In this document: positions 13,764-34,586 of the stretch, one piece after another | Layout of the letters: each line of letters begins with the position of its first letter | How positions within the stretch are numbered: position 1 is the stretch's first letter | Assembly (NCBI GenBank): GCA_016935975.1 | Contig: JAFGPX010000300.1 | Span: 1 to 36,697, forward strand | DNA length: 36,697 nucleotides | Direction: 5' to 3' | From: Deltaproteobacteria bacterium | GTDB lineage: Bacteria; Myxococcota_A; Polyangia; Fen-1088 | Translations under genes and position numbers: made by a program | The notes under the pieces: model-generated | Databases searched by the model: none | Seen by the model: the letters and a program-made list of their open reading frames with translations, nothing else | What the model was told of the DNA's origin: nothing

Positions 13764-15395
13764 ATGCCAGCATCATCCCTCGACAGCATCGTCAGCCTGT
13801 GCAAACGCCGCGGCTTCGTCTTTCCGTCCTCGTCCGTCTACGGCGGCTTGGGCAGCACCTGGGACTACGGCCCGCTCGGCGTCGAGCTCAAGAACAACGT
13901 CAAGCGGGCCTGGTGGCGATCCGTGGTGCACGAGCGCGACAACATGGAAGGGCTCGACGCCGCCATCCTGATGAACCGCCTGGTATGGAAGTACTCGGGG
14001 CACGAGGCGACTTTTTCGGATCCCATGACCGACTGTCGGGCGTGCAAGGCGCGGCCGCGCGCGGACCACGTGTTCGCGGCCCAGAAGGGACGCGACCCCA
14101 AAGGCCTGCCCGAAATCAACGCCGCCATCGAGGCCAAGGAGCTCGCATGTCCCAAGTGCGGTTCCAAGGATCTGACCGCGGCGCGGCCCTTCAACCTGAT
14201 GTTCCGAACCTCGGTTGGCCCGGTCGATACCGGCGATGAGTCGGGTCTGGTCTACCTGCGCCCGGAGACGGCGCAAGGGATCTTCGTCAATTTCGGCAAT
14301 GTGCTCGATACCATGCGGCGCAAGTTGCCCTTCGGCATCGCCCAGGTCGGCAAGGCCTTCAGGAACGAGATCACTCCCGGCAACTTCACGTTCCGCACGC
14401 GCGAGTTCGAGCAGATGGAAATAGAGTACTTCGTGCGTCCCGGCGAGGACGAGGCCGCGCACGAGGGGTGGATCGCGGAGCGTACGAGCTGGTATCTCGC
14501 GCTCGGGATACGCAAAGAGAACCTGCGCGTGCGCGAGCAAGAAAGGCACGAACTCGCTCACTACGCAAAGCGTTGCGTGGACATCGAGTACCTCTTCCCG
14601 ATGGGCTGGAGCGAGCTCGAGGGCATCGCCAACCGGACCGACTTCGATCTGCGTTCGCACAGCCGTTCGGCCGACAACCCCGACGCAGTCGGCGAGTTGC
14701 GCTACTTCGACCAGGAGCAGAAGAAGCACATCGTTCCCTATGTCATCGAGCCCTCGGCGGGCGCCGATCGCGCCACGCTGGCCTTTCTGTGCGACGCCTA
14801 CGAGGACAGCCTGGTCAAGGAGCCGCCGGCCGAGGAGACCGCCAAGCTGCGCGAACTGGTCGAGAGCTTCGCCCGCTCCGTGGGGCGTCGCGAGGGTATG
14901 GCCGCGGAGAGCAAGCAACGCCTGGTGGCGACTGCGGAGGCCGTCGCGGCAGGACTGCCACAAACCTTGCCGCGGCTCATCGGCCTGATGGAGGACTCCG
15001 AGGCCGCCGCCTTCGAGGTCATGAAGAAGGTGCGCGGTGTGGGGGAGAAATTGGCCGACGAATACACGCGCACGGTGTTGCACCTAGATCCCCGTTTGGC
15101 GCCCCTGACCGTCGCGGTATTCCCTCTCAAGCGCAACGACCCCCGCCTGGTCGACATGGCGCGCGGCCTTCGGCGCACCCTGCAGAAGTCCGGGCTGCGC
15201 GCTGTCTACGACGACACTGGCGCCATCGGGAAGCTCTACCGGCGGCAGGACGAGATCGGGACGCCCTGGTGCGTCACAGTCGACTTCCAAAGTCTGGAGG
15301 ACCAGACGGTCACGGTTCGCGACCGGGACAGCATGCGGCAGGAGCGCGTTGGGGCCGCGGAACTGGCGCAAGCGCTCACGGCCCGTCTGGGATGA
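13764..15395 (+). CDS. glyS: Glycyl-tRNA synthetase, single-chain (alpha2) class II type
   Basis: KRRGFVFPSSSVYGGLGSTWDYGPLGVELKNNVKRAWW, RPETAQGIFVNF, GKAFRNEITPGNFTFRTREFEQMEIEYF, C-terminal anticodon domain LAPLTVAVFPLKRNDPRLVD. Confidence 0.97.
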   Translation: MPASSLDSIVSLCKRRGFVFPSSSVYGGLGSTWDYGPLGVELKNNVKRAWWRSVVHERDNMEGLDAAILMNRLVWKYSGHEATFSDPMTDCRACKARPRADHVFAAQKGRDPKGLPEINAAIEAKELACPKCGSKDLTAARPFNLMFRTSVGPVDTGDESGLVYLRPETAQGIFVNFGNVLDTMRRKLPFGIAQVGKAFRNEITPGNFTFRTREFEQMEIEYFVRPGEDEAAHEGWIAERTSWYLALGIRKENLRVREQERHELAHYAKRCVDIEYLFPMGWSELEGIANRTDFDLRSHSRSADNPDAVGELRYFDQEQKKHIVPYVIEPSAGADRATLAFLCDAYEDSLVKEPPAEETAKLRELVESFARSVGRREGMAAESKQRLVATAEAVAAGLPQTLPRLIGLMEDSEAAAFEVMKKVRGVGEKLADEYTRTVLHLDPRLAPLTVAVFPLKRNDPRLVDMARGLRRTLQKSGLRAVYDDTGAIGKLYRRQDEIGTPWCVTVDFQSLEDQTVTVRDRDSMRQERVGAAELAQALTARLG

Positions 15396-15482: not shown

Positions 15483-18305
<2,823 letters not shown>

Positions 18306-18317
18306 AGACCAGTCACG

Positions 18318-18360
18318 TTGAACCACAGAGGGCACAGAGGGGACGGAGGCCGCAGAGAGA
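18318..18360. repeat. Intergenic repeat of the 'AACCACAGAGGnCACAGAGGnnACGGAGG' type
   Basis: TTGAACCACAGAGGGCACAGAGGGGACGGAGGCCGCAGAGAGA; internal imperfect ~9-bp periodicity (ACAGAGGgC / ACAGAGGgG / ACGGAGGcC / GCAGAGAG). Confidence 0.6.
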
Positions 18361-18401
18361 GGAAGAGCCAGGACGCGAATGCGGAGAAGCCTGGCTCTTC
18401 C
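18361..18401. repeat. 12-bp perfect inverted repeat (hairpin) downstream of ppdK
   Basis: GGAAGAGCCAGG (18361-18372) and CCTGGCTCTTCC (18390-18401), 17-nt loop. Confidence 0.85.
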
Positions 18402-18437
18402 GGACTCCGGGGTCCCTTCGCTCTCGGCGCCCCTGGG

Positions 18438-19937
18438 ATGACGCTCTATTGCCTCGTCGCCGCGTTTGCCGTGCTCGGCGAAGGATGCGACTTCGGTCAG
18501 AGCGGCATCGAGCCGCCCGTCGATCGCATCTTTCTGCCTGCCGCCATTGCGGCTGATCCGGACAGGGATCTCCTCTACGTCGTCAATTCCAACTCGGATC
18601 TGCGCTACAACGCTGGCACCGTCACCGTGGTCGACCTGAGCAGGGTGCGGGCCGTCCACGAGCAGGCCGCCGTCACGCCGTTCCCTCTGTGCAGCAAGAC
18701 GCGTTTCGCCCGCACCGAAACGGTGGCGGGGGACTACTGCTGCCGCGACCTCGTGGACAGCAACGTGACCAACTGCAGCGAACCGCAGTTCATCGGGGCC
18801 GAGAGCACCGTGTCGGTCGGCAGCTTCGGCACCGCAATCCAACTGCAGCGCTACGTGCGCGACGACGGCGTGGTGGTGCGACGGCTGTTCGTCGCGGTTC
18901 GTGCCGAGCCGTCCATCACCTATGCCGATGTCACCGTCGACGAAACCAGCGGCAAGGTGGCAGTCCGCTGCACGGGCCCGCACCAAGGCGGCCTTCCACA
19001 ACCGGCAGGCGCCTACTGCGACGACAACTGGAAGCTGCGCCGTCCATCCGGAGCCACCCCCGGGGCGTTGGTGCTTCCCGAGGAGCCGCACGCCCTCATG
19101 CTCGACGAGACGCTCGGTATCCTCTTCGTCGGGCATCTGACGGTAACCGCCAACGCCGAAGTCCAGGGCGGAGGAGTTACCTCGGTGGATGTCTGCAATC
19201 CACAAGACGACAGCCCCGTGCGCTTCGCCGGACTGGCTCGCACCACCTTCCTGCCGGCCACGCTTTCGCAAGCCGTGGCCGGGCTCTCTCCGGGCGATCC
19301 TGCCAATTCCGAGACAAGGCTCCATGCGACCGCGCGCTACTCGGCGGCCATCAGCGGGTTGGTGCTGAAGGAACGCGATGCCACGCGCATCGCCTGCTCT
19401 CGCGCCGCCCAGGAGCGCGATCTCACGCTGGTGCCGTCCGAGTCGTTCTACTCCCCGGCCTTCTTGCCCCGTGGCGCCGACATCCGCGGTATCTTGTTCT
19501 CGGGCGACGGTCGCACGGCCTACGTGCTGCACCGGAACGACACGGATTCGGCGGTCAATCCGGCCGCGCTCGTGGTTCTCGATCGGACCCGGCTGGCCGA
19601 CGGCAGCGCGGCCAACACGCCCACCGCCATTCTGGGGCTTTGTTCCGGTCCCACCGCCATGCAGATGCACGATGCCGGTCGCGGCGAACGCATCTACGTA
19701 ACCTGCTACGACGACGGGCAGATCTACGTCGTGGATCCCCGTGCGCTGGTGGTCGTCGCAGCCATCGACGCAGGGGCTGCTCCGGCCAGCCTCGTGTTCT
19801 CGCCGGCGGACCCTGGTTTCGCGTACCTCGCGAACTACGTCGACAGCCACCTCTCGGTCATCGATCTCAAACCCGGCAGTCCCACGGAGAATCATACCGT
19901 GCTACGCGTCGGGCTACCTCACGGGTACGGCGAATGA
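18438..19937 (+). CDS. Uncharacterised exported/lipoprotein with YncE-like beta-propeller features
   Basis: Signal-like MTLYCLVAAFAVLGEGC; repeats such as LLYVVNSNSDLRYNAGTVTVVDLSRV, IYVTCYDDGQIYVVDPRALVVVAAIDAGAAPASLVFSPADPGFAYLANYVDSHLSVIDLKPG; high GC3 coding bias. Confidence 0.75.
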   Translation: MTLYCLVAAFAVLGEGCDFGQSGIEPPVDRIFLPAAIAADPDRDLLYVVNSNSDLRYNAGTVTVVDLSRVRAVHEQAAVTPFPLCSKTRFARTETVAGDYCCRDLVDSNVTNCSEPQFIGAESTVSVGSFGTAIQLQRYVRDDGVVVRRLFVAVRAEPSITYADVTVDETSGKVAVRCTGPHQGGLPQPAGAYCDDNWKLRRPSGATPGALVLPEEPHALMLDETLGILFVGHLTVTANAEVQGGGVTSVDVCNPQDDSPVRFAGLARTTFLPATLSQAVAGLSPGDPANSETRLHATARYSAAISGLVLKERDATRIACSRAAQERDLTLVPSESFYSPAFLPRGADIRGILFSGDGRTAYVLHRNDTDSAVNPAALVVLDRTRLADGSAANTPTAILGLCSGPTAMQMHDAGRGERIYVTCYDDGQIYVVDPRALVVVAAIDAGAAPASLVFSPADPGFAYLANYVDSHLSVIDLKPGSPTENHTVLRVGLPHGYGE

Positions 19938-22900
19938 GTCGCTGCCGTCTCCTGTCGGTCTTCCTGCCGTTGCTCGGTCTGGCCAGCGCCTGCTCGTCGA
20001 CCCCGACCGTCATTCCGACCAGGAACCTCGACCGCCCGACCGACATGGCTTTCGTTTGCCTCGGCATGGTGGCCGCGGACGCGAGCGGTACGACGCTGCT
20101 CAGCGGGCAAGGGATGGACGCCTGCCACCCGCGCACCGCCGTCGACCCCGACATCCTTGCCAACGGCCAGCGGACGCTAGGCACCTTCGCCTTCATCACC
20201 AACGTCGGTCGTGGCGAGCTCGCGGTCGCCGATATGGACAGTGGCCGTTTGCTCGACCTCGCCCCGGAAGTTCCGGGCTACGGGATGCTGCCGGTCGGCG
20301 GCAATCCCGAAACCGTGGTCGCAAGCCAGGACGGCTGCTGGGTCATGACCGCGAGTCGGTCGAGCTGCAGCCTCTCGCTCGTCGATCCCGCTCGCCTCTT
20401 GGCCAGGACCTTCTCGACGAGTTCCACACCGGCCGAGCCCGCTACCGGGCCCGGCGAAGTGGCGCGCCGCTTGGTCGTGCACACCGGCGCCGGCAGGGCG
20501 CTCGACGTCTCGGTAGGGGAAATCGCCTTTCTGCCGCCCGCAGTGACCGCGCCGACCTGCGGGGCGGCGGCCTTGCCCCGCGCCGTGGCGACCTTCCCGG
20601 GCTGCGATATGGTGGCGGTTCTGGAGCTGTCGTTCGAGGCCGCGACGGCGCGTATTGTTGACGCCTACTACGTGCGCCCCGACCTGCCGGGCGGAGCCTT
20701 GGCCGCGGGCAGCGAGCCCATCTGCCCCGACGATTGCTCTCCGCCCTCGGGGAAGGACGACGCCGTCCTTGTACGCGACGGAGGTGCGGGGGCTCTCGAC
20801 GGCGGAGGCAGAGAAGGGATCGACGCCGGGGCCGTCTCTGGGCAACCTCCTTTCTACCTGCACCCGCTGGCCTTGGTTCCCGACGGAACCCGGGTGTACG
20901 TCGGAAGTCTTCTCGACACGGCCGTCACCTCGCTCGACATCGCAGGCAGCGCCATGGGCCATCCCGTGCGCGTCACGCTAGCCGAGAGTCCGGGCGGCGT
21001 CACCCGTTTGCGCCTCGGCATCGACCCGCACCTCACGGCGCAAGTCCTGCGTCCCGACGGCAGCACCGGCACGGTGACCGGCCAGTTCCTGCACGACCGC
21101 GGCTCCTTCCTGTACGTCTTCGCGTCCGACGCCTCCATCCGCGTGCTCGACATCGGCGGTGAGGCGCCCGTCGAATGCGACGTGAACATCCCCGTCACCT
21201 CGGATCGCGCGTGTTTCCCCGTCGGAACGCCAGGGCGACGGCCTCTCGCGGCCGGCCCCGGCATCCGCATTCCCACCTTCGCGAATCCCGACAGCCCGCC
21301 GCCCCTGCCGCGCGATCTGGCTTTCGTGGATCTGCGGCCGACGGAAAACGACGGCAACTACCACGCTCTTTCCGGCCAATTCGCCTTCGTGCTGGCCGCG
21401 AACGGACAAGTTTACGTGCTCAACCTGGCTCCCAACGGCGAAAACGGCACCGCCACGCATTCCTTCCGCGAGAGCCGCGACGTGGGCAAGAACACGCGAA
21501 CCCCGATCGCCGTGTCCATCGCGCCGCAACGCTCGGTCGTGCAGTCGGACCAGGCCTTTGCCACCACGGCCTCCTTCTCGGCGATGGAGGGTCCGCTCAT
21601 CGAATCCTTCCTCTCCGATGGCGTGGCGACCCCGAGTTGGTTCGGTTTCCCCGATCCCGACAACGTCGTCTCGCGTCGCTGGGACATCGTCTGGGAGGGC
21701 GTCCTGCCCCTGACCACGCGCGGCAGTGGCGTCGTGGAGAGTGCAGCCGCGGGAGAAGTCGCCGGCAGGCTATTCGACGCGGGCGCGGATTTCTGCCGTA
21801 GCGGTGTGCGAATCGGGGACATCCTCATGTTCTCGGGTTGCACGCAGAACTCGGAGTGCCAGCCCGACGACGAGTTCACCTGCCAGGTGACCGTTTCGGG
21901 AGCGCGTGGCATGTGCCTGCCCAAGCAGGCCTCGTCCAGCACGGGAATCGTCGATCAGTGCGTGCGCTTCATGGGCAGCCGCATGCGCTACGAGGTGGCG
22001 CAAGCCATGACGGACTCTCTCGCCTTGCGGCTGAAGCTCGACGAGGTGCCCAAGACGACGCTCAACCCCTGCACCCAGGATTCCGACTGTCGCCCCGACG
22101 TCGATCACGGCAAGCTGTCGAGCGGCAACCCGGACGGGGGCGGGCGGCAGCCGTTCGCGTGCCTCGAGGTGCGCCCGCAAGAACGTCGCTGCGTTCAGCG
22201 CTGCCACCCGGAAAACGGCGACTCCGATTGCCGGGCGGGGCACGTCTGCGAATTGGTGCCCTGGGTCTTGCCCGAGGTGGGCCCGCTGTGCGTCGAGGCC
22301 CCACCCATCGACGCCAGGTGCTTCCCGCAGCCCATGACTGCGTACAGCGTTCGCGCCGGCCACGCCTTCATGGTCTACGGCTCCTCCATGCCGAGCCTCC
22401 TGCACACCGCGCGGGTTGCTCCCGATGGAAACTGCCAGTACGACGCCGGCCCAGATCCCGCCCTCGTCGACCGCATCCCACTTCTGGCTCCGCCCTGCCC
22501 GGACAGCTTTTTGTCCCAAGTGCGCGAGGCCGAGAAGGATCCCCTGACCGGCGCGGAGATCTCTCCGGCCGTGCACGTCCAGGATCTGGCTGCCCAGGCA
22601 GGCAGCAACCCCTGTCTCTATCGAACGGCTTCCTCCGGCGGCGGCCAGTCTCCGGACGGCGGCGCGCCGAGCGACCAGCCGATTCGCGCCTTCTTCCAGA
22701 ACCCGCAGATACGCTTCGTGCTGACGAATCTGGACGCCTATGCGGGCGATCTGCTGGCGATCCACTTCGAGTTCCAATACGGCTTCGTTCCGCTGACCGT
22801 TCAGATTCCGAGCTACGAGGTGCAGCTCACCATGGGCACGCGAATCCTCACCGGACCAACCAAGACGCCCGAGAGCCCTCTTCGCCACGTGCCGCCGACG

Positions 22901-23065
22901 GCGGACATCAGCTACCCATACCTCTACGTCGTCGATCAGGGGCGGACGGCGCTCACCCCTGGCAGCAAGGGGCAAGTCTTGCGCATCAACCCGCGCGCGG
23001 GGAGCAACGAGATCGTTGTCTTCGACACGACCATGTCCGGCAGCACGCCGTTCCAGCTGCAGTAG
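19934..23065 (+). CDS. Large uncharacterised Cys-rich lipoprotein with beta-propeller-like N-terminal half
   Basis: MSRCRLLSVFLPLLGLASACSSTP (lipobox-like); C-rich modules CTQNSECQPDDEFTC, NPCTQDSDCRPD, ENGDSDCRAGHVCEL; 4-nt ATGA overlap with the upstream gene. Confidence 0.78.
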   Translation: MSRCRLLSVFLPLLGLASACSSTPTVIPTRNLDRPTDMAFVCLGMVAADASGTTLLSGQGMDACHPRTAVDPDILANGQRTLGTFAFITNVGRGELAVADMDSGRLLDLAPEVPGYGMLPVGGNPETVVASQDGCWVMTASRSSCSLSLVDPARLLARTFSTSSTPAEPATGPGEVARRLVVHTGAGRALDVSVGEIAFLPPAVTAPTCGAAALPRAVATFPGCDMVAVLELSFEAATARIVDAYYVRPDLPGGALAAGSEPICPDDCSPPSGKDDAVLVRDGGAGALDGGGREGIDAGAVSGQPPFYLHPLALVPDGTRVYVGSLLDTAVTSLDIAGSAMGHPVRVTLAESPGGVTRLRLGIDPHLTAQVLRPDGSTGTVTGQFLHDRGSFLYVFASDASIRVLDIGGEAPVECDVNIPVTSDRACFPVGTPGRRPLAAGPGIRIPTFANPDSPPPLPRDLAFVDLRPTENDGNYHALSGQFAFVLAANGQVYVLNLAPNGENGTATHSFRESRDVGKNTRTPIAVSIAPQRSVVQSDQAFATTASFSAMEGPLIESFLSDGVATPSWFGFPDPDNVVSRRWDIVWEGVLPLTTRGSGVVESAAAGEVAGRLFDAGADFCRSGVRIGDILMFSGCTQNSECQPDDEFTCQVTVSGARGMCLPKQASSSTGIVDQCVRFMGSRMRYEVAQAMTDSLALRLKLDEVPKTTLNPCTQDSDCRPDVDHGKLSSGNPDGGGRQPFACLEVRPQERRCVQRCHPENGDSDCRAGHVCELVPWVLPEVGPLCVEAPPIDARCFPQPMTAYSVRAGHAFMVYGSSMPSLLHTARVAPDGNCQYDAGPDPALVDRIPLLAPPCPDSFLSQVREAEKDPLTGAEISPAVHVQDLAAQAGSNPCLYRTASSGGGQSPDGGAPSDQPIRAFFQNPQIRFVLTNLDAYAGDLLAIHFEFQYGFVPLTVQIPSYEVQLTMGTRILTGPTKTPESPLRHVPPTADISYPYLYVVDQGRTALTPGSKGQVLRINPRAGSNEIVVFDTTMSGSTPFQLQ

Positions 23066-23092
23066 GACGATTCCTTAGCAGTTTCAACAATG

Positions 23093-23122
23093 TTGACAAT
23101 TGGTAGGGATAGAACCTACATT
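23093..23122 (+). promoter_or_regulatory. Putative argS promoter overlapping palindromes
   Basis: TTGACA (23093-23098) - 18 bp - TACATT (23117-23122); ACCTACA-T-TGTAGGT at 23114-23128. Confidence 0.6.
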
Positions 23123-23130
23123 GTAGGTGA

Positions 23131-24915
23131 ATGAGCGATAGCGTTCGCACCACCGTTCGAGAGATCCTGCGGCAAGCGGTCCTCGGTGCCCATGCGGGGG
23201 GTCAGCTTGGCGAGGTTCCCGACCAGATGCCACTCGAGCGTACCAAGCGGCCCGAGCACGGCGACTACGCCACCAACATGGCTCTCGGGCTGGCGAAAGC
23301 CGCCGGCAAACCGCCGCGGGATCTCGCCGAAGCCATCGCCAAGCAGTTGCGCCTGCTCGGCGGTTCCGATCTGGCCGAAGTGGCCGTGGCGGGCCCGGGT
23401 TTCGTCAACATCCGTCTTTCGGATGCTTTCTGGCAGCGTCGCTTGCTGGCGATTCGCGCGGCCGGAAAGGCGTGGGGCAGGGGCCGGGCCAAGCCCGAGA
23501 GACTATGTGTCGAGTACCTCTCGGCCAATCCCACGGGGCCGCTGCATTTCGCCCACGGTCGGCACGCGGCGGTCGGCGACTCGTTGACCCGGCTTCTGCG
23601 TTTCGCGGGCCACGACGTCGTCCGAGAATTCTATCTGAACGACGCGGGCAACCAGGTCGCGGCGCTCGCGCTCTCGGTGTGGACCCGCTACATGGAGGCC
23701 GCGCGAGCGGCCGACGCAACCGTCCCCGCGGTTGTCTTCCCCGAAAACGGCTACCGCGGCGACTACGTTCGCGGCATCGGCCGCGAGCTCCTCGCACGTG
23801 ACGGTCCCCGCTGGGTGGGCACGGAACCTCCGGCCGACATCGAGCCGGTCAGGCGTTTCGCCATCGAGCGCTGTCTGGCCATGATTCGCGCCACGTTGGA
23901 GCGTTTCGGCGTCGACTTCGACGTGTGGCAGAGCGAGCGCGATCTGCACGAAAACGGCGAGGTCAAGGCAACGCTGGAGGTTCTGGACAAGGCCGGGTTC
24001 ATCGATCGGCGCGACAACGCGGTCTGGCTGCGCACGACGGCTCTGTGGGGGGACGAGAAGGATCGCGTCGTGGTCAAGTCCGATGGTCTGCCGACCTACC
24101 TGCTGGCCGACATCGCCTACCACCGCAAGAAACTGTCGCGCGGCTTCGACAGCCTGTGCGACATCTGGGGCGCCGATCATCACGGACACATCCCGCGCAT
24201 GCAGGCCGCCCTCAAAGCGCTCGGGGCGGCTCCGGATCGTCTGTCGGTGATCCTCATCCAGATGGTGAGCCTTCTGCGAGACGGCAAGCCGGTGCCCATG
24301 GGCAAGCGAGAGGGCGAGTTCGTCACGCTCGACGCCGTGGTCGACGAGGTTGGCCGCGACGCCACGCGTTTCTTCTACTTGATGCGGCGGCACGACACGC
24401 CGCTGGAGTTCGATCTCGAGCTGGCCAAGCGCCAGTCGATGGACAACCCCGTGTACTACGCGCAGTACGCGCACGCTCGCTGTGCCTCGCTGCTCCGCCG
24501 CGCCGCCACGCTGCAAGCACCGAGCATGCCGCTCGACGAGGAGCTGGCGCGAGGCTTGAGCCTGCCCGAGGAGATAGCGATCCTGCGCCGCCTTTCGGAC
24601 TTCCCGGACCTTCTGTCCGACGCGGCTGCGGCGCGCGAGCCGCATCGCCTGGTGCAGTACATCCAGGAACTGGCCGCGGAATTCCAGAGCTACTACACCC
24701 GCCTGCAGAAAGTACACGGCGACAGCATCCTGCCGCAGAAGCGGCAAAGGGTAGGGGACTGGCACGCGACGTGGGACTGGAAGCGCACCGCCGCTCGCCT
24801 GGCCTGGGTCGAGGCCATCCGACAGGTCCTGGAAATCGCCTTGTCGCTCGTGGGAGTCTCCGCCCCCAGCGAGATGAAACGCGCCGAAGCCGGTGAGGAA
24901 GTCGAGGGACTCTAG
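23131..24915 (+). CDS. argS: Arginyl-tRNA synthetase
   Basis: EYLSANPTGPLHFAHGRHAAVGDSLTRLLRFAGHDVVREFYLNDAGNQ; KREGEFVTLDAVVDEVGRDATRFFYLMRRHDTPLEFDLELAKRQSMDNPVYYAQYAHAR; DALR-type C-terminus. Confidence 0.97.
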   Translation: MSDSVRTTVREILRQAVLGAHAGGQLGEVPDQMPLERTKRPEHGDYATNMALGLAKAAGKPPRDLAEAIAKQLRLLGGSDLAEVAVAGPGFVNIRLSDAFWQRRLLAIRAAGKAWGRGRAKPERLCVEYLSANPTGPLHFAHGRHAAVGDSLTRLLRFAGHDVVREFYLNDAGNQVAALALSVWTRYMEAARAADATVPAVVFPENGYRGDYVRGIGRELLARDGPRWVGTEPPADIEPVRRFAIERCLAMIRATLERFGVDFDVWQSERDLHENGEVKATLEVLDKAGFIDRRDNAVWLRTTALWGDEKDRVVVKSDGLPTYLLADIAYHRKKLSRGFDSLCDIWGADHHGHIPRMQAALKALGAAPDRLSVILIQMVSLLRDGKPVPMGKREGEFVTLDAVVDEVGRDATRFFYLMRRHDTPLEFDLELAKRQSMDNPVYYAQYAHARCASLLRRAATLQAPSMPLDEELARGLSLPEEIAILRRLSDFPDLLSDAAAAREPHRLVQYIQELAAEFQSYYTRLQKVHGDSILPQKRQRVGDWHATWDWKRTAARLAWVEAIRQVLEIALSLVGVSAPSEMKRAEAGEEVEGL

Positions 24916-24945
24916 AAACCGCCCGTTTTCGCCGAGGAGTAAACC

Positions 24946-25857
24946 ATGGGATACACTTCAGGGACAACGATGGAAGACCGGGGTCTACGCGACATAGAGC
25001 GGTGGCGCGACAAGATCGAGGTGCGTCTCGACAACCGCCAGGTCTTCTTTCTGTTTTTCGGCAGCGCGTTGGTGGCATGCATGTTGTTCGTGCTCGGCGT
25101 GATCGTGGGCAAGCGCCTGGAATCGCGCGGCCGCGCGGTTTCGCCCGAGATCGAAGATCCGCTGGCCTTGCTCGACAAGGTGGCGACCAGCCCGCGGCCG
25201 GCGCAAAGCGGGGTCACGTTCCCGCAGGCCCTCTTCGGCGCGAACGGCAAGACCTCGTCGTCGGACAGGCACGGCAAGAAGCTCTCGGGGCGCGCATCGA
25301 CGGTTCTCGACAAGAGTGACGGCCCGCTCAAGCCCGCGCAGGCGGCTGCCAAACCGGCCGAGACGGCAGCCAGACTGCCCCTGGCAACGGCGGTCAGAAC
25401 CCCCGAGGTGGCCCCCAAGCCCCCGGCCAACACCGCGCCCCAAGGCAAGCCAGCTCCGGCCAAGCCCGAAGCCAAGCCCGCGCGCGCCGAGGAGAAGCAA
25501 ACGAACGTGGCAGCGGCCACGAGCAAGGCAACGGACACGAAAGCAGCAGGGGACAAGACCGCCGAAGCCAAGGAGGCCATGCCCGCGCCCATCCCTACCG
25601 TCGCGGCCACCGGTGACAGCAAGAGCAAGGGGCACTTCACCCTGCAGCTCAGCTCGTTCCAGGACAAATCCGAAGCCGAGGCCTTCGCGCAGAAATTCGC
25701 GAGCGAACGCCCCTACATGGTGAAGTCCGATATTCCCGGCAAAGGCATCTGGTACCGTGTGCGCGTCGGCGACTTTGCGTCGTCCAAGGACGCCATGGCC
25801 GCCAAGGAGGCCTTCGAGAAGAAGCACAACGTGATCGCGTACGTGGCGCAGAAGTAG
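24946..25857 (+). CDS. SPOR-domain single-TM protein with Ala/Pro/Lys-rich linker
   Basis: TM QVFFLFFGSALVACMLFVLGVIVG; C-terminal GHFTLQLSSFQDKSEAEAFAQKFASERPYMVKSDIPGKGIWYRVRVGDFASSKDAMAAKEAF; SD GAGGAG. Confidence 0.9.
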   Translation: MGYTSGTTMEDRGLRDIERWRDKIEVRLDNRQVFFLFFGSALVACMLFVLGVIVGKRLESRGRAVSPEIEDPLALLDKVATSPRPAQSGVTFPQALFGANGKTSSSDRHGKKLSGRASTVLDKSDGPLKPAQAAAKPAETAARLPLATAVRTPEVAPKPPANTAPQGKPAPAKPEAKPARAEEKQTNVAAATSKATDTKAAGDKTAEAKEAMPAPIPTVAATGDSKSKGHFTLQLSSFQDKSEAEAFAQKFASERPYMVKSDIPGKGIWYRVRVGDFASSKDAMAAKEAFEKKHNVIAYVAQK

Positions 25858-25870
25858 GCGCGCTCGAGTT

Positions 25871-28800
25871 TCAGAACATCAGCCCCACGTTGAAGTGGGT
25901 GCGCCACCGGTCGTCGCCGGGGCGGCGGTTGAGAGGGATGGCGAAGGACAAGCTCAAGTCGCCGACGGGAAGCTTGATGAGCAGGGGCGAAAAACCGACC
26001 CCATGGCGGAAGTCGCGGGCCGAGATGCCCCCGAGAGAGTAGCCGACCGTGCCGCTGTCCAGGAACACCGAGCCGTAGAGCGGAGCCGCTATGGGGAACT
26101 GCAGGTCGATGTTCTGCAGGATGCGCAGGTTGCCACCCATCGGCCGGTAGCCGACGTAGCTCATGCCCGGCGTCGCCGGCCGGCTGATGGTTTCGGTCAG
26201 GGCATGATCGAGTTGATAGCCGCGAATCGTGGTGTCGCCACCGGCGAAATAGCGCTCGACCTTGGGCAGCAAGGCGGCGCCGCCCAGCGGGAAGCCCTGG
26301 TCGTAGCGGATGCTGTAGCGCAGGCTGAGCCACGGCAGGAGCGGCACCACGGACAGACCACGTCCGTAGAACTTCACGAAGCTGTCGTCGCCGACATTGA
26401 AGGCGAGGGCACGCAGCGCCACCTCGACGCCAGCGGCGATCTTGAAGCCGCGCGTGGGCACCAGCACGTGATCCAGCCGCCGCCATTCCACGGTGGCGCT
26501 CAGGCTGCTCACGAAAGTGCCGATGCGCACCGTGTTCTGTTCCGGGCCTTGGAACGGCCCGGGGGTGGCCCCGCGGTCGAGCATTTCCGTGCGCGAGGTA
26601 TTGCGCAGGTTGTAGCGCAGGCCGGCGTCCACTCCCGGGTACATCTCGCGCGAGAAGCCGAACGAGCCGCTGCCCGAGTGGATGTCGCCCAACCGCAAGG
26701 TGGCCTGCTGCAAGTAGCTGCCGACGATCTCCATGCGGAAAAGCGAGCCGAAGAAGCGCGGATTCAAGAAGCTGGCGGTGTAGTTCTGCAATGTCGAGCC
26801 GTAGGCCAACGAGGTCAAGAACGTCCAGCCATGACCGAAGAGGTTGCGATGCTCGTAGCCGGCCGCTCCGTACACGCCGAGGTGGGGGAACGAGGAGTCG
26901 GGCGGAGCCTGGTCCGTCGAGGCTCCGCCCCCGACCTTGATCACGCCCCAGTGGTCGTGCCGCTCTTCGACCTCGATGACCATGGGCACGAGGGGATCCT
27001 CGGGGCCGATGCTCGGGAAGGCGATGGGGTTGGGATTGTTGAAGAGCTGGATAAGGGCCAGGTTGCGCTGCGCTCGCTCCAACCCGCGCGTGGTCAGGAT
27101 ATCGCCGCTGCGGAGCTCGGCCCAGGTCATGATGGTGCGGCCGGTGGTCAGGAAGTTGCCGCGCAGGAAGACGGGCCCGATGCGCACTTGCGGCCCGGTC
27201 TTGACCTGCCAGGTGATGTGCATCTGGTTGCCGTGACGCACGCTCTTGGCCTCCACCTGGGCGTAGCGGTAACCGTCGTCGCCCAGTGCGCGCTTGATGC
27301 GGTTCTCGTCGCGCCTGATGAAGGTCGGCTGATAGGGAGCTCCCAGGGTCGTGCGCAGGGACTCCATGTAGAACTCGTCCTCACGGGGCAGGCCCTCGCC
27401 CGGCCCCAGGCATGTGAACTGCATGCCGGCCACCCACAAGAGCTGCGACTCCTCGATGATGAACCGGACGTACAGGCTGTCGGCATTCCGCCAGACCGGC
27501 TCCTCGGCCTTCTCGATGCTGGCCGGCAACGGACGCCATTCGCCGGGGTGGGGCGCGATCTCGGCGCGCACCTTCGTCTCCGGATAGCCCTGAGCCGCGT
27601 AGTGCTCGACCAGGCTCTCCACGTCCAACTGCAGCTGGCGGAGGCTGGCGAAACCTCCCTCGCCGAGCCCGATGACGCCCAGGAAGGGAAACACCTTCGT
27701 GCGAATACCCTCGGCGAGAGCATCCGAGGAGAAGGCGTGGTTGCCCTCGAACGAGATGCCCCGAACCTTGAGCAAGGGCCCCTCGTCGATGGTGAAGATC
27801 ACGCGGTCGGAGTGCTCGGAGATTCTCTGACGGCGCCACTTGACCTTGACCAGCATGTGCCCGCGCTCGTGGTAGGCGTGCTCCAGAGCCGCGGCGCTGG
27901 TTGCGGCTTCCACATCGTCGTAGGCCCCGTGGGCCAGAAACGTCAGGTGGTTGTGCAGGCTGGCCGCCGAACGGGTGCGATTGCCCTCGAAGGCGACTTC
28001 GACGTGGCGCCGCTCTCGGATCTCGATGCCCAGCCGGACGTTCTTGGCTTGCCGGTCGAGACTCCTCTCCTCGTCGAAGTCGTCCTGGACGCGGACGCCG
28101 GGGAACCCGATGCGGCGGTAGCGCATGACCAGATTGGCGATGTCTTCGCGTAGATCGGCGCGCTGAAAGGGCTTGGGCAGGAGCCAAAGCGTGTGCCAGT
28201 CCCCATGGCGGAAGCCCTCTTCGATGTCGTTCGGCGCCAGGGCCGTGGCTCCGACGATCTGCAGTGGCCCCAAGGGATAGGCCGGCCCCAACCTGACCCT
28301 GACCAGCAGGTCATAGCCGGCGGGCTCCTTGCCATGGTCGTGCAGCTCGATGCGAACTTCGGCTTCCCAGTAGCCGCTGCTGCGCAGAAAGTCCCGCACG
28401 TGGTCGACCTCGGCGGCGATGAAGGCGTCGCGTTCCGGACCGGCGGACGGCAGCTTCATGCCCGGCCGGATGCTCAATTTGCCGATGATCGTCTCCTGAC
28501 GCATGCCCTGACGGAGAAAGGGCTGGTTGCCGGAGACGAAGATGCGACGCACACGATTCATGGGGCGCAGGCGCACGCGGAGTTGCACGGAGCCGCCCGA
28601 CGCGGCTTCGCCGATCTCCGCCGCGTAGCCGATGACCGCGAGAACGTGCTTGATGCGCGGGATGGTGCCGATGGGCATGCCCACGCGGTCCGCCTCGCCG
28701 GAAGGAACGAAGGGCTGGCCGGCGGGCGCGACGGTTTCGATCAAGGCTTCGATGCGGCCCGGCGGATCGATGCTGCCCTCCACCACGACGCTCCCCAGGA

Positions 28801-28948
28801 CGGCCACGGGTCCGGCGGTCGTAGGCTCGCTGGCGCGCGCGGGTTGAGCGTCTTCGTCTTCGTCTTCTTCTTGCGCGTGCCCGGGGCCCGGCCATGCCGC
28901 GGAGGCGACAGCCAGGAGGAGAAGGGCTGGGGATAGGAGCCGGGACAA
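25871..28948 (-). CDS. Omp85-family outer membrane protein (BamA/TamA-like) with multiple POTRA-like repeats, TTG start
   Basis: Signal peptide, repeated POTRA-like segments, barrel with FAGGDTTIRGYQLD and terminal WRTHFNVGLMF. In-frame TGA just upstream makes TTG 28948 the first usable start. Confidence 0.92.
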   Translation of the reverse strand: MSRLLSPALLLLAVASAAWPGPGHAQEEDEDEDAQPARASEPTTAGPVAVLGSVVVEGSIDPPGRIEALIETVAPAGQPFVPSGEADRVGMPIGTIPRIKHVLAVIGYAAEIGEAASGGSVQLRVRLRPMNRVRRIFVSGNQPFLRQGMRQETIIGKLSIRPGMKLPSAGPERDAFIAAEVDHVRDFLRSSGYWEAEVRIELHDHGKEPAGYDLLVRVRLGPAYPLGPLQIVGATALAPNDIEEGFRHGDWHTLWLLPKPFQRADLREDIANLVMRYRRIGFPGVRVQDDFDEERSLDRQAKNVRLGIEIRERRHVEVAFEGNRTRSAASLHNHLTFLAHGAYDDVEAATSAAALEHAYHERGHMLVKVKWRRQRISEHSDRVIFTIDEGPLLKVRGISFEGNHAFSSDALAEGIRTKVFPFLGVIGLGEGGFASLRQLQLDVESLVEHYAAQGYPETKVRAEIAPHPGEWRPLPASIEKAEEPVWRNADSLYVRFIIEESQLLWVAGMQFTCLGPGEGLPREDEFYMESLRTTLGAPYQPTFIRRDENRIKRALGDDGYRYAQVEAKSVRHGNQMHITWQVKTGPQVRIGPVFLRGNFLTTGRTIMTWAELRSGDILTTRGLERAQRNLALIQLFNNPNPIAFPSIGPEDPLVPMVIEVEERHDHWGVIKVGGGASTDQAPPDSSFPHLGVYGAAGYEHRNLFGHGWTFLTSLAYGSTLQNYTASFLNPRFFGSLFRMEIVGSYLQQATLRLGDIHSGSGSFGFSREMYPGVDAGLRYNLRNTSRTEMLDRGATPGPFQGPEQNTVRIGTFVSSLSATVEWRRLDHVLVPTRGFKIAAGVEVALRALAFNVGDDSFVKFYGRGLSVVPLLPWLSLRYSIRYDQGFPLGGAALLPKVERYFAGGDTTIRGYQLDHALTETISRPATPGMSYVGYRPMGGNLRILQNIDLQFPIAAPLYGSVFLDSGTVGYSLGGISARDFRHGVGFSPLLIKLPVGDLSLSFAIPLNRRPGDDRWRTHFNVGLMF

Positions 28949-28976
28949 GTGGGAGTCTCAGGGGTCGTGGGAGAGT

Positions 28977-31900
28977 CTATGGGTTGGGCCACCGGAGCGG
29001 GTACTCGAAGGTCAGCTCGAAGCGCACGGTGTTGGTCTGCACGGGCAGACCCTGTTGCAGGGAGTAGGTGAGGCTGTCGGCTATGGCCCGGGTGGTCAGG
29101 TAGTCGCGAATCCATACTGTACTTTGCGCCCTGTAGCGTACTTGGCTCTGGAAGCCCCGCAGATAGGACAGCTCCAGGTCGAACTCGCGCGTGGCGCGGG
29201 CCTGGACCTTGACCTCGAAACCATCGGCGCCGACCGCCGGCCGGAGGTTCCACTTGCGCCCGGTCAGCATCTGCAGGGTGTCGTCGATGTAGGGCTCGAT
29301 CAAGCTGGACACGGCATCGCGGGACACCTGGCCCAGGACGTTGAGCCCACTCTGCTGGTTCATGCCGAAGATCTGGCCGCTGTTGCCGCTGATGTTGTCG
29401 GTCGTTCGCCCGGAGAGCAGCAGCAGCATGGTCTGGTTGCGGTCCAGCCCCTCCTTGGTGGACAAATCGATGGTGGCCTGGTTGATGGGGCCGCGGATTC
29501 CCATGAGCACCGTGTGTTCCTTGCCCGAAGCATCGACCATGGCGTTCTGAGCCTCGAGGTTCAGCTCGGGCGTGTCGCCCAGCGCGATCGACTTGGTCGG
29601 CACAAAGGTCACGTAGTTCACGTTGGGCACGAGCTCGAAGTCCCCGCGCAAGCCAATGATGTGGAACCGACCGTCGGTCGGCAGGATCTGCCCGGAAATC
29701 GCCGGTCGTGCCAGCGTGCCGCCGATGCCCAGGTCGATGCGAAGGTGGATCTCGGGCGCGAGGTTGTTCTGCACAACGAAACCATCGCCGTCGGTGCGCA
29801 CCCGGAGGGCCAGGACCAGGTTCTCCAGTAGAGGCTGGTTCTCCCAGATCGGGGTCGGGTCCGATTCGTTGATGCGCGCTGAGAGCACGAGGTTGCGCAC
29901 GTTGAAATCCTGCAGGTAGCGCCCAGAGATCAGGCGCACGTCGCCGGCCAAGCGCAGCCCGTCGTCGGGATTGCCGCTCAGCTCCATGGCCAGCGCCAGG
30001 TCGTCGACTTCGACACCGCCGTCGCGGTACCCGAGCCGGGTGCCCTTGAGCGGTAGGTAGAGATCGTCCCAGACGAACTCCGGCCGCAGGCTGCGGATGT
30101 GGATACGGCCAGGCTTCACTCCGCCGGCACCGATCAGCAATTCGCCCTCGTCGTCGAGACGGACCTTCACGTCGCGCAGCAAGATCTCGCGGCTCGTCAC
30201 ATCCAAGGTGCCGCTCTTGATGGCGATCTGGCGACTGACGCCGCGCAAGCGCATCTCGATCTCGCCCAGGCTCAAGCGCGCGCGGACGTCCGGTTCGTCG
30301 ACCGTGCCCGCGACCTTGGCCGAGATGGCGGCTCTGCCCGACACGTCCGAAACCTCGCTCGGCGCCAACGACTCGAGAATGTTGGCGCTGATCTCGCCGC
30401 CGACGTCGAGAGCGACGGTCCGGGGCGCGAAGCCGGCACCGAGACCCACTTTGCCGCTCACGCGGAGTGCGGCGTTGTCGACCACCACGGCCAGATTGCT
30501 CAACTCCACCGCCGACGAAGTCAAGCGCACTGCTCCCGACGGAATCGCCACGACTTGGTCGAATCCCCGTGGCCTGGCGCGCACTGGGCGCGTTATGGCG
30601 ATCTTGCCGCGCACATCGGGCTTCTTGACCGTGCCGCGGGCGTGGACCCCGAGGGCAATGCCGCCGCGCAAGGACGCAAATCTGCCACGCAGGATGGGTT
30701 GCAGAAGGTCGAGGTCGAACCTGCCGGCCACGTCGGCAGTCACCGCCTGGTCGACCACCTCGCCTCTTCCGTCCTTCATCGGCCGAACCTCGGCGAGCAA
30801 GGTGAACTCGCCGCCCGGGGTCAGCAAGGTCGCCGGCTCGACGGTCACGCGCTGAGTGTCCGTGAGAATGTGCAGGGGAGTCGAGTTCTTGAGCCAGACG
30901 CGCTCCTTCTTCGTGCTGCCGTCCTCCTCCACCAGATCGCGCGTCAGTGCGGCGTCGATCTGGGAGATGAGCACGTCGATGGCGGGTAGCTTTCCGGGCA
31001 GAAGGTCCAGCCGGATCTTCCCCGACAGCGCCGCCGCGATGCCCTCTTCGTCGAGGTCGGGAAGCAACTCCTCGAGATGCAAGTCCTCGAAGGCAAGGCT
31101 GGCGTGGACGCGCGGCCCCTTTGCGCCATAGGCGGCTTCGGCGTCGAGCTGCATGCGACCAAAGAGAGCCCCGCTTGCGACGACGCCGCCGTCCGGCGTC
31201 GGAGACAGCACCAGTTGGGCGTCACCCAGATTCAGGTCGAAGGCGCGCACCTTGCCCAGCGTGATGGTGCCCTCGACCAAGGGGGCGGTGACCGTGCCGG
31301 CCACGCGCAGGTCGACGCTCAGATTGCCGGCTACCGGCGCGTCCACCTTCGCGGCCTCCAGAATCGAGGCGACAGGCAGGTCGATGATTCTGATTCGCCA
31401 GTCGATGGCCAACGGCGCTTTCGCCAAATCGGCGCGTCCCTCGATGCGAATGTCCCCGCCCGACTTGCCCGCCACGTGGCACAGGCGGACCACGAGCGCG
31501 TCCTTGCCGGCCTCGATCTCGATGCCTTCGAGCAGCCACGGCTGGCCGAGAACCTCGACCGCGGTTCCGGCCGGCACGCGGAAGAGGATCTTGGGTCTCT
31601 TGGTCGTGCCCGAGGCCTTGAGCGCGAACGAGACGCGACCGGAAACCACGCCCGAGCCGATCAACTCCTCAAGCGACAGATTCTCGCCGTCCAGCCGGAA
31701 GTTGATGGCAGGGGCGCCCAGCATGTGCGCCAAGCCGCGCTCGAATAGACGGGCCGTGCCGTCACCCTCGACGGTGCCGTTGGCCACCTTGGCGTGCAGG
31801 CGGTCGACGGTTAATGTGCCATCGCGCAGGCGGAAGCCGCTTCGCAATTGGCCCACGGGGGGAATGCCGGTTGCGCCACCGCCGATGCCGCGCACTTCGA

Positions 31901-33518
31901 TGCTGCCGTCGGCCGTCGGCCGATCCATCGGTCCCGAGACATCGAGCGCCACGTCGGCGCTTCTGGCCAGGGGAGGGGCATTGACCGCGGCCAGCACCTT
32001 GCGCAGGTCGGACGCGCCGATGCGTAGACCCAGGTCGACCAGCTTCTTGGCCAACTCGACCTTGCCGCGAACGTCGGCCTGGGCCCCTGGAATGGCGATG
32101 CGCAGGCCGGAGGTGCTGGCCGATTCGGCCGAGGCCCGGGCCTGGCCGCTGATGCGCACCGAGCCCGGGATCCCGCCGCCCTTGCTCGTCCGGTCGTAGG
32201 CCAGGTTCATCTCGAAGAGCTTGATCGACTTCTTCTCGCCGATGTTGGCCGCGATAGCGAGGTGGCCGTGCGCCTTGCCCGCAGCCAGCTTCCGCAGCCC
32301 GGAAGGCAAGTAGCTCCGCGTGTCGAATCTGGCGAGATCGATCTTGGCCGCGATGTCGTCGTCGGCCATGGTGAGCGAGGTCGCAAACCTGCCACCGGTC
32401 GGCGATTGGAACCACAGCTCGTCGACGTTCACGGTCATCTCGGGCGGTTTGGTGTCGAACTTCACGCCGGCGTGCAGGTGGAGCTGCTCGGCCCAGTAGC
32501 TCTCGTAGCCGGCGTCGAGACCGTCGATCGCGGCTTTGATGTCCAGGGTGACGTAGGGCCCGTTGAGGTCGCTCACCACCTTGACGTCGTCGCCGCCAAT
32601 GCCCAAGCCGGCGATGCCGTGCGGTTTGGCGACCGCGTTGAGCGCGTCGGCACCGCGATCGAATTCGGCGTGCATGTTGATGCCCGAAACCGAGTCCGGG
32701 GCGTAGATGCCGCGGAAGAAGCCCCTGCCGCGCAGGGTGCTGCGGCCGGTCCGCCCCTCGGTCATGTCCAGGAATATGTCGTCCCAGTACTCGCGCAGCG
32801 TGGCCACCTGCTTGACCTTCACGAAGTCGAAGGGCAGCTCCTCCGTCAGCACGCGGAGGTAGCCGCCCTGGCGTGCCTCGAGATCGACCGCCTCCCAACC
32901 CACGAAGCCCTCGCCGTCCACCAGCAGCCAGGCGGGCGCGTGCACGTCGCGCAGATCGAAGCCCCAGGTCCCGGGGAAATCGAAGATGACGCGAAAGCCG
33001 TCCAAATCGGCGTTCACGATCTGGAAGACGAACCCTTTCTCCTTGGGGGCCCCCGGCGGCTTGGGCGGAGACGGCGGAGGCGGGGTCTTGGGGTCGAACG
33101 AGGCCAGAAAGCCAATCCCTTTGAGCTTCTTCATGCGACCGAACAGCCACATGGACTTCGGCCCGACGTGCAGGTCGGAGAGGATGACGCCGCCGCCACC
33201 GATGAGGGGCTGCAGGCGGATCTTCACCTCCAGGTTGGGCACGTCGAGGACCGTCGTGCCCTCGGGATCCGTGATAAGGAGCCCGCCGATGACCATGGGC
33301 GTGGGCCGGTCGACGATGAGATCCCAGAGCAGGCGGGGTTGCCAGCGTATCGAGTCGAAGTGGATCTTGCCCCGCATCGGCGGCAGGACCGCGTTGACGA
33401 TCTTCGCCATGCGCTCGCCCTGGACGAACAGGATGGCGGCCACCACGACCACTGCCAGCAGTGCGACCAGCCCGGCCAGGCCATAGGCCAGGATCTTGAC
33501 GATTTTCCGACGCAACAC
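28977..33518 (-). CDS. tamB: TamB/DUF490 translocation and assembly module protein
   Basis: N-terminal TM ILAYGLAGLVALLAVVVVAAILFVQG; long AsmA/TamB-like beta repeats; C-terminal DUF490-like region (SGLNVLGQVSRDAVSSLIEPYIDDTLQMLTGRKWNLRPAVGADGFEVKV...). GTG start 33518 inferred. Confidence 0.88.
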   Translation of the reverse strand: MLRRKIVKILAYGLAGLVALLAVVVVAAILFVQGERMAKIVNAVLPPMRGKIHFDSIRWQPRLLWDLIVDRPTPMVIGGLLITDPEGTTVLDVPNLEVKIRLQPLIGGGGVILSDLHVGPKSMWLFGRMKKLKGIGFLASFDPKTPPPPSPPKPPGAPKEKGFVFQIVNADLDGFRVIFDFPGTWGFDLRDVHAPAWLLVDGEGFVGWEAVDLEARQGGYLRVLTEELPFDFVKVKQVATLREYWDDIFLDMTEGRTGRSTLRGRGFFRGIYAPDSVSGINMHAEFDRGADALNAVAKPHGIAGLGIGGDDVKVVSDLNGPYVTLDIKAAIDGLDAGYESYWAEQLHLHAGVKFDTKPPEMTVNVDELWFQSPTGGRFATSLTMADDDIAAKIDLARFDTRSYLPSGLRKLAAGKAHGHLAIAANIGEKKSIKLFEMNLAYDRTSKGGGIPGSVRISGQARASAESASTSGLRIAIPGAQADVRGKVELAKKLVDLGLRIGASDLRKVLAAVNAPPLARSADVALDVSGPMDRPTADGSIEVRGIGGGATGIPPVGQLRSGFRLRDGTLTVDRLHAKVANGTVEGDGTARLFERGLAHMLGAPAINFRLDGENLSLEELIGSGVVSGRVSFALKASGTTKRPKILFRVPAGTAVEVLGQPWLLEGIEIEAGKDALVVRLCHVAGKSGGDIRIEGRADLAKAPLAIDWRIRIIDLPVASILEAAKVDAPVAGNLSVDLRVAGTVTAPLVEGTITLGKVRAFDLNLGDAQLVLSPTPDGGVVASGALFGRMQLDAEAAYGAKGPRVHASLAFEDLHLEELLPDLDEEGIAAALSGKIRLDLLPGKLPAIDVLISQIDAALTRDLVEEDGSTKKERVWLKNSTPLHILTDTQRVTVEPATLLTPGGEFTLLAEVRPMKDGRGEVVDQAVTADVAGRFDLDLLQPILRGRFASLRGGIALGVHARGTVKKPDVRGKIAITRPVRARPRGFDQVVAIPSGAVRLTSSAVELSNLAVVVDNAALRVSGKVGLGAGFAPRTVALDVGGEISANILESLAPSEVSDVSGRAAISAKVAGTVDEPDVRARLSLGEIEMRLRGVSRQIAIKSGTLDVTSREILLRDVKVRLDDEGELLIGAGGVKPGRIHIRSLRPEFVWDDLYLPLKGTRLGYRDGGVEVDDLALAMELSGNPDDGLRLAGDVRLISGRYLQDFNVRNLVLSARINESDPTPIWENQPLLENLVLALRVRTDGDGFVVQNNLAPEIHLRIDLGIGGTLARPAISGQILPTDGRFHIIGLRGDFELVPNVNYVTFVPTKSIALGDTPELNLEAQNAMVDASGKEHTVLMGIRGPINQATIDLSTKEGLDRNQTMLLLLSGRTTDNISGNSGQIFGMNQQSGLNVLGQVSRDAVSSLIEPYIDDTLQMLTGRKWNLRPAVGADGFEVKVQARATREFDLELSYLRGFQSQVRYRAQSTVWIRDYLTTRAIADSLTYSLQQGLPVQTNTVRFELTFEYPLRWPNP

Positions 33519-33608
33519 CGTCAGAGTACCCCGAGCGCGCGCACCTCGCCAAGTCGCCAGGGAGGCTTTCTCAGGCAACTTCCGCCCATGAAGGACCGAT
33601 AGTCCGGC

Positions 33609-34304
33609 ATGCTCTGGCGCCACGTCGCCGCCCTGCTGTGGCCCGCCCGGTGTGCCGGGTGCAACGCCTTCGTCCCCGAGGGAGTGTCCTTCTGCCCTTC
33701 GTGCGAAGTCAGCATCGTCTCGCTGGGGGTGTGCTGCCCCGGTTGCGCCATGCCGGTCGATGCTTTCGGTGCTTGCCAGGGCTGCCAGAAGATGCCCTTG
33801 CCGTTCGCCCGGGCACAAGCGGCGCTGGCCTACGGCGGCGCGCTCGCGCAGGCCCTGTTGCGCTGGAAGCACGGCGGCCAGAGGCACGTTGCGCGGTCCT
33901 TGGCGGGCTATCTCGCACCGCTGCTCGCGCGGGCGGCTGACCAGGGGGCCGAGATCGCCTGTCCGGTGCCCCTGCATCCCCGCCGACTGCGCGATCGTGG
34001 ATTCAACCAGGCGCTGGATTTGCTGCGCGCAGCTCGACCTCGCGTCGCTTCCATCGCGATCGCTTGCGACGCCCTGGCGCGCACGGTGGACACCCCTTCG
34101 CTCGGGCATGGCACCCCCGCGCAACGGCGTCGCATCGTGGCCAATGCTTTCGCGGTCGCCCGACCGGGCAAGATCGAGGGCAAGCACGTCTTGCTGGTCG
34201 ACGACGTCATGACGACGGGCGCAACCCTGGCCGAGTGCTCGCGCGTGTTGCTCGAAGCCGGAGCGAAGGAGGTCGCGGTGACTGTCCTGGCGCGGGCGAT
34301 CTGA
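33609..34304 (+). CDS. comF: ComF family phosphoribosyltransferase-like protein
   Basis: Cys motifs CAGCNAF...CPSC...CPGC...CQGC; PVPLHPRRLRDRGFNQALDLLRAA; HVLLVDDVMTTGATLAECSRVL (PRPP motif). Confidence 0.93.
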   Translation: MLWRHVAALLWPARCAGCNAFVPEGVSFCPSCEVSIVSLGVCCPGCAMPVDAFGACQGCQKMPLPFARAQAALAYGGALAQALLRWKHGGQRHVARSLAGYLAPLLARAADQGAEIACPVPLHPRRLRDRGFNQALDLLRAARPRVASIAIACDALARTVDTPSLGHGTPAQRRRIVANAFAVARPGKIEGKHVLLVDDVMTTGATLAECSRVLLEAGAKEVAVTVLARAI

Positions 34305-34370
34305 GATTCTCTCCCCTTGACACCTCACCTCGGATCGCTAAGGTAGCCGGCCTGGACCAGAACACTGCAC

Positions 34371-34442
<72 letters not shown>

Positions 34443-34586
34443 CTGGCTTTCCGCCCCACCGAGGCAAAAGCCGAGCAAACCAGGCCGCGGTGTGCTACTC
34501 TCCTTCCTCGTTGATTCAGCTATCCCTATCTTTCGTGAAGCTGGCGCCTGCCGCCGCAGGTGGTTTGCGCTCGGAGTGCCGGCCCC

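Follow-up and report, generated by a model that had tools for sequence, protein, structure and literature searches.

The window, by which we mean the whole 36,697-nucleotide stretch of DNA that was analysed, carries argS between a gene for a lipoprotein-like protein and a gene for a SPOR-domain protein (Table 1). The argS-then-SPOR gene order is conserved among relatives, and the two genes are presumably cotranscribed. The codon directly 5' of the argS ATG is a stop, TGA in the window and TAA in most close relatives; the start at 23131 is therefore secure, with none further upstream. Beyond the SPOR gene, the minus strand (25871-34328) holds an Omp85/POTRA protein (TamA-like) in tandem with a very large TamB, beside tRNA-Val.

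Table 1. Features at the argS locus, in window coordinates
Feature	Position	Strand	Basis or remark
Lipoprotein-like gene, no Pfam family; syntenic marker	19934..23065	+	homologues precede the site even without argS
Second palindrome CAACAATGTTG, probably incidental	23085..23095	.	unconserved outside the genus; arms of 5 in 10% of shuffles
-35 element TTGACA	23093..23098	+	sequence; invariant in nine family members
Perfect palindrome ACCTACA-T-TGTAGGT = ACCTACATTGTAGGT, putative operator, core CCTACA(N)TGTAGG	23114..23128	.	sequence, family conservation, class-wide recurrence
-10 element TACATT (TANNNT), within the palindrome	23117..23122	+	sequence; spacing fixed in 9/9 g1/g6 argS promoters
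Predicted transcription start, at or no more than 2 nt from the argS ATG	23129..23131	+	position of the -10
argS, arginyl-tRNA synthetase, 594 aa	23131..24915	+	Pfam DALR_1, Arg_tRNA_synt_N, tRNA-synt_1d
SPOR-domain protein, N-terminal membrane segment	24946..25857	+	Pfam SPOR 3.9e-13; 30 bp past argS

A first-pass annotation of this DNA had placed the promoter TTGACA-N18-TACATT in front of argS, with a perfect 15-bp palindrome over its -10 element. Both were confirmed, and the 10 kb from 18000 to 28000 hold no sigma-70-like match besides this promoter with its 18-nt spacer (0.6 expected). Tight palindromes with arms of at least 7 arise in 0.6% of shuffled 65-mers of the same composition. Because 17 palindromes with such arms occur in the whole window, ACCTACATTGTAGGT alone is not rare and the case for it rests on comparison. 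CTACANTGTAG was found once in the window (0.09 expected, allowing up to one mismatch). The other element of that annotation, CAACA-A-TGTTG over the -35, is present one base from where it had been put. It is not kept outside the genus, and five-base arms like those of CAACAATGTTG arise in 10% of the shuffled 65-mers. We therefore rejected it as an operator.

Conservation of the argS promoter and its predicted leaderless start

We compared the argS intergenic region from nine family members, the window counted among them. Two blocks are conserved, TTGACA with a few flanking bases and CCTACA-N-TGTAGG (CCTACANTGTAGG), with T or G as the centre base of the palindrome; the rest is unconserved. The first-pass annotation had named lack of conservation in relatives as grounds for giving up its proposal, and the opposite was found. 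Genera g2 and g4 carry an even-centred form upstream of argS (CTACATGTAG), about 21 nt from TTGACG as against 17, and argS promoters in other families have CCTACATGTAGG, CTTACATGTAAG or CCTAC(A/G)(G/T)GTAGG. By this comparison CCTACA(N)TGTAGG is conserved in orthologous promoters in the manner of an operator for a dimeric transcription factor. A plain core promoter, its -10 palindromic by accident and served by no regulator, would account for a -35, spacing and -10 that are all good and conserved. It would not explain why both arms are conserved beyond the -10, or why the same palindrome stands at other positions relative to the predicted -35 and -10 before other genes and in other families, and we regard it as unlikely.

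The distance from promoter to start codon is also conserved. All nine measured argS promoters from g1 and g6 have an 18-nt spacer and a -10 that ends 8 nt before the ATG. At pilZ, a gene unrelated to argS in the same family, all 12 loci have a 17-nt spacer, and in 10 of them the -10 lies 6-8 nt from the ATG. The other two, both in g2, have the same promoter followed by a 28-30 nt leader with AAGGAGG, a strong Shine-Dalgarno sequence; a leadered and a putatively leaderless form of one promoter can thus be compared in nature, with pilZ of g2 set beside that of genera g1, g6 and g7. The 60-residue acidic gene treated below is, in contrast, preceded by an ordinary leader. A TANNNT motif about 10-12 bp upstream of the start codon has been described as the signature of leaderless bacterial genes (PMC3160421). 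The argS TACATT, running from 14 nt (first T) to 9 nt (last T) before the ATG, lies at this distance in the same way, but differs from those genes in that it doubles as part of a putative operator. The earlier proposal that the argS mRNA is leaderless, or nearly so, is well supported by these comparisons. Its companion statement, that there is no usable Shine-Dalgarno sequence, holds if transcription starts near 23129; a longer transcript would hold a weak AGGTGA against the ATG.

The repeat could instead work in RNA, as a hairpin (an attenuator, or a device sequestering the start site) on a transcript from further upstream. ACCUAC-AUU-GUAGGU could indeed pair and, in a read-through mRNA, hide the region around the start. 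However, folding of 23080-23180 gave nothing out of the ordinary (z -1.3), which led us to reject this reading; the even centres at many sites leave a weak hairpin, and the element, where other families have it within the promoter spacer or 5' of the -35, would not be transcribed. These observations make an RNA device extremely improbable. A search for Rfam elements near argS gave no match, and together with the unremarkable fold this bears out the original remark that control here is unlike a T-box or attenuator. T-box and other synthetase leaders likewise place control before a synthetase gene, but argS has no leader RNA in which one could form, and the other genes that share its palindrome are not related to amino acids.

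Recurrence of the palindrome before other genes

The first-pass annotation had suggested a genome search for similar sites upstream of other genes, and across the class such sites were found before PilZ, ParA, FtsK, FtsZ and MreB genes. The 5.4-Mb genome of the window has four CTACA(N)TGTAG sites. TTGAC precedes three of them, those at argS, at a PilZ-domain gene and at a gene for an acidic protein of 60 residues, divergent from parA, and all three recur across the family. TTGAC-N16..30-CTACA(N)TGTAG occurs in 17 of 18 family genomes (42 matches, versus 3 for the reversed control), and CCTACA(N)TGTAGG was found 25 times in the family versus once for its control. The association with TTGAC is weaker outside family f1. 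A looser pattern, TTGAC-N12..32-CTAC-N1..2-GTAG, returned almost only known CTACATGTAG sites from eight family genomes; since its control counts exceeded its matches, no clear further family targets emerged.

We then considered the whole class, for which the data are DNA, largely from metagenome-assembled genomes, and the list of sites is a sample. Among the sites listed, the neighbours encode FtsZ, FtsK, ParA, MreB, N-acetylmuramoyl-alanine amidase (Amidase_3) and a transpeptidase (PBP); SPOR, PilM, FHA-GGDEF and many PilZ genes also adjoin. A pooled scan of 127 ORFs adjoining mostly non-f1 sites gave PilZ 11, ParA 6, amidase 5, FtsK 4, SPOR 3, PilM 2 and FtsZ 2, a tally that is descriptive because ORFs whose identity as FtsZ, MreB, amidase or FtsK was known beforehand were included by hand. 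Genes beside the sites were called by simple mechanical ORF finding. At 50 reversed-control sites in the same class, GGATGT(N)ACATCC, the 30 adjacent ORFs matched protein-kinase-type families only, with no division, envelope or PilZ types. Certain exact sites fall within genes, or next to lipoprotein genes without an obvious link, and these may be chance occurrences. Taken together, the sequence comparisons indicate that the same inverted repeat is found above chance upstream of several functionally linked genes.

The consensus of 66 even-centred sites is CCTACATGTAGG, its inner ten bases fixed by the search pattern, with a mild A/T preference outside. Some sites also have an outer palindrome, TATCC-N8-GGATA, which may resemble the E. 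coli HipB operator. The acidic protein of about 60 residues (R-x-YRTFEEFEREEL...DEMF...ELDFE) is conserved beside ParA with the operator in front (L115/L136 1577-1759, L161, L162, L250, L265); neither Pfam nor NCBIfam gave a match for it. Two copies of the palindrome, adjacent or degenerate, are found at several promoters of family f8, for example CCTACACTATACTACATTGTAG (L169, L167, L168, L170), which suggests cooperative tandem operators.

These targets bear on whether argS is controlled as a synthetase gene. An operator specific to arginine or tRNA-Arg supply would fit the presence of the site before argS in several families. Nevertheless, the remaining targets are division, envelope and PilZ genes, other synthetase or arginine genes were absent from the site neighbours inspected, and the palindrome is missing at the two further synthetase genes of the window (13764-15395 and 34560-36374). 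Furthermore, three relatives (G004, G006 and G008) lack a close copy of this argS, their best matches reaching 25-32% identity, and still carry the palindrome upstream of the SPOR gene (L132-L134), preceded by a homologue of the lipoprotein gene of the window. At three additional loci (L233, L234, L238) the site precedes a SPOR-type gene and argS is absent there too. Because the site is kept before the SPOR gene where argS is missing, the site tracks the SPOR gene in evolution, and its place between the lipoprotein gene and the SPOR gene in three relatives that lack this argS argues against aminoacyl-tRNA-synthetase control. We consider such control very improbable, and this part of the first-pass annotation, in which expression of a synthetase as such was regulated, did not survive. 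Instead, argS probably heads a division/envelope (SPOR) operon and would be regulated by position rather than for its own sake.

Two of the loci without argS (L133 and L134, both 1501-1600) have an ATG 8-9 nt past the palindrome. A short ORF (e.g. MTTLCMSVLLHTILLSTPK) begins there, well ahead of the SPOR gene, and may be a relic or a leaderless leader peptide. Outside Myxococcota, a genome-contig scan with the ArgS of the window gave Bacillaceae-type ArgS only, at 40-44%, and three members of the family to which the window belongs carry a different, distant ArgS; these matches suggest that argS was replaced or transferred.

Placement of the proposed operator and a candidate regulon

The palindrome is not fixed relative to the promoter elements, which were assigned by eye. 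It lies over the -10 at argS and pilZ in f1, at about +1 at the 60-residue gene, f4 argS and f8 pilZ, between -35 and -10 at f7 argS and pilZ, and just upstream of the -35 at f10 PilZ genes. At six loci (L181, L196, L213, L253, L256, L277) CCTACATGTAGG is directly followed by (A)TTTTTGACTTCAT, so that the palindrome stands just 5' of the -35, mostly before PilZ genes. This variation favours the operator of a DNA-bound dimer over a sigma-factor element or an RNA device. Judged from position, most placements likely favour repression, although f10-type sites upstream of the -35 (e.g. L181, L196, L213) fit activation, so the factor may be dual. Of the repressor control proposed at the outset, the conserved regulatory palindrome over the -10 thus stands, and repression itself is likely by its position.

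We think it likely that CCTACA(N)TGTAGG is the operator of a dimeric factor with a small division, partition, cell-wall and c-di-GMP/pilus regulon in this class of Myxococcota, and that in the genome of the window it overlaps the -10 of a repressed, leaderless argS-SPOR operon. RNA polymerase on TTGACA-N18-TACATT would start at about the argS ATG and yield a leaderless mRNA, and the candidate factor, when bound, would block this start. Since the site recurs before division, wall and polarity genes, it appears to mark an undescribed division circuit rather than synthetase control. A broader reading, which we offer tentatively and hold at somewhat less than even, is that CCTACATGTAGG may be the site of a master regulator of division and polarity in many families of one Myxococcota class. 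Such a regulator would link ftsZ, ftsK, parA, mreB, peptidoglycan enzymes and c-di-GMP effectors, with one family having leaderless mRNAs whose -10 lies inside the operator. A search of open-access literature gave no description of a cell-division transcriptional regulon in Myxococcota and nothing relevant on CTACATGTAG. The palindrome at ftsZ, ftsK, parA, mreB, wall-hydrolase and PilZ promoters provides a handle for isolating the regulator, and for asking how these bacteria coordinate division, polarity and c-di-GMP.

Candidate factors and known systems

It has been reported that mycobacterial BlaI affects cell-division genes (PMC12565901). Operators of the BlaI/MecI/CopY (Penicillinase_R) repressors are palindromes with a TACA...TGTA core over core promoters, as here. 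The CopY-type core TACANNTGTA has a two-base centre (PMC7253601), whereas the centre is 1 base at the conserved argS site and 0 at the pilZ and 60-residue-gene sites of the family, and none of these reads TACA-N2-TGTA; the class-wide site search covered centres of 0 and 1 base. In addition, PF03965 (BlaI/CopY) is lacking in the genome of the window and in most of the tested genomes that bear sites (G000, G002, G016, G009, G019, G047, G031, G085 and others), and is present in siteless g74 genomes (G116, G129). On these grounds we rejected this group as the factor. No helix-turn-helix gene recurred among the site neighbours, which included two sigma-54 activators.

We also weighed a ribbon-helix-helix protein like CdbA/CdbB (TIGR04563) that would act on c-di-GMP. 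CdbA is a nucleoid-associated protein of Myxococcus xanthus that binds c-di-GMP, has the PilZ partner CdbS and affects chromosome segregation and division (PMC7156744, PMC10313047). PilZ genes and one GGDEF gene are among the targets of the palindrome, TIGR04563 is near universal in the class, and in a genome of another class (G262; L302 1418-1660) CCTACATGTAGG lies 45 bp upstream of a TIGR04563 gene. However, the sequence bound by M. xanthus CdbA is a GC-rich direct repeat, occupied at hundreds of sites with minor transcription effects (PMC7156744), and its motif was discarded as a match for an inverted repeat with an AT-rich core. TIGR04563 is equally present in families without sites, and the palindrome is mostly missing upstream of its genes, which also speaks against their general autoregulation. 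We therefore find a CdbA-like factor distinctly unlikely.

CdbA and the candidate regulon have themes in common, namely DNA binding, c-di-GMP, a PilZ partner and segregation and division. They differ in that the palindrome has few sites per genome and is an AT-centred inverted repeat at promoters. In the CtrA and WhiA/WhiB regulons one factor controls several division, partition, wall or polarity genes, as is proposed here; these regulons belong to other organisms and use other motifs.
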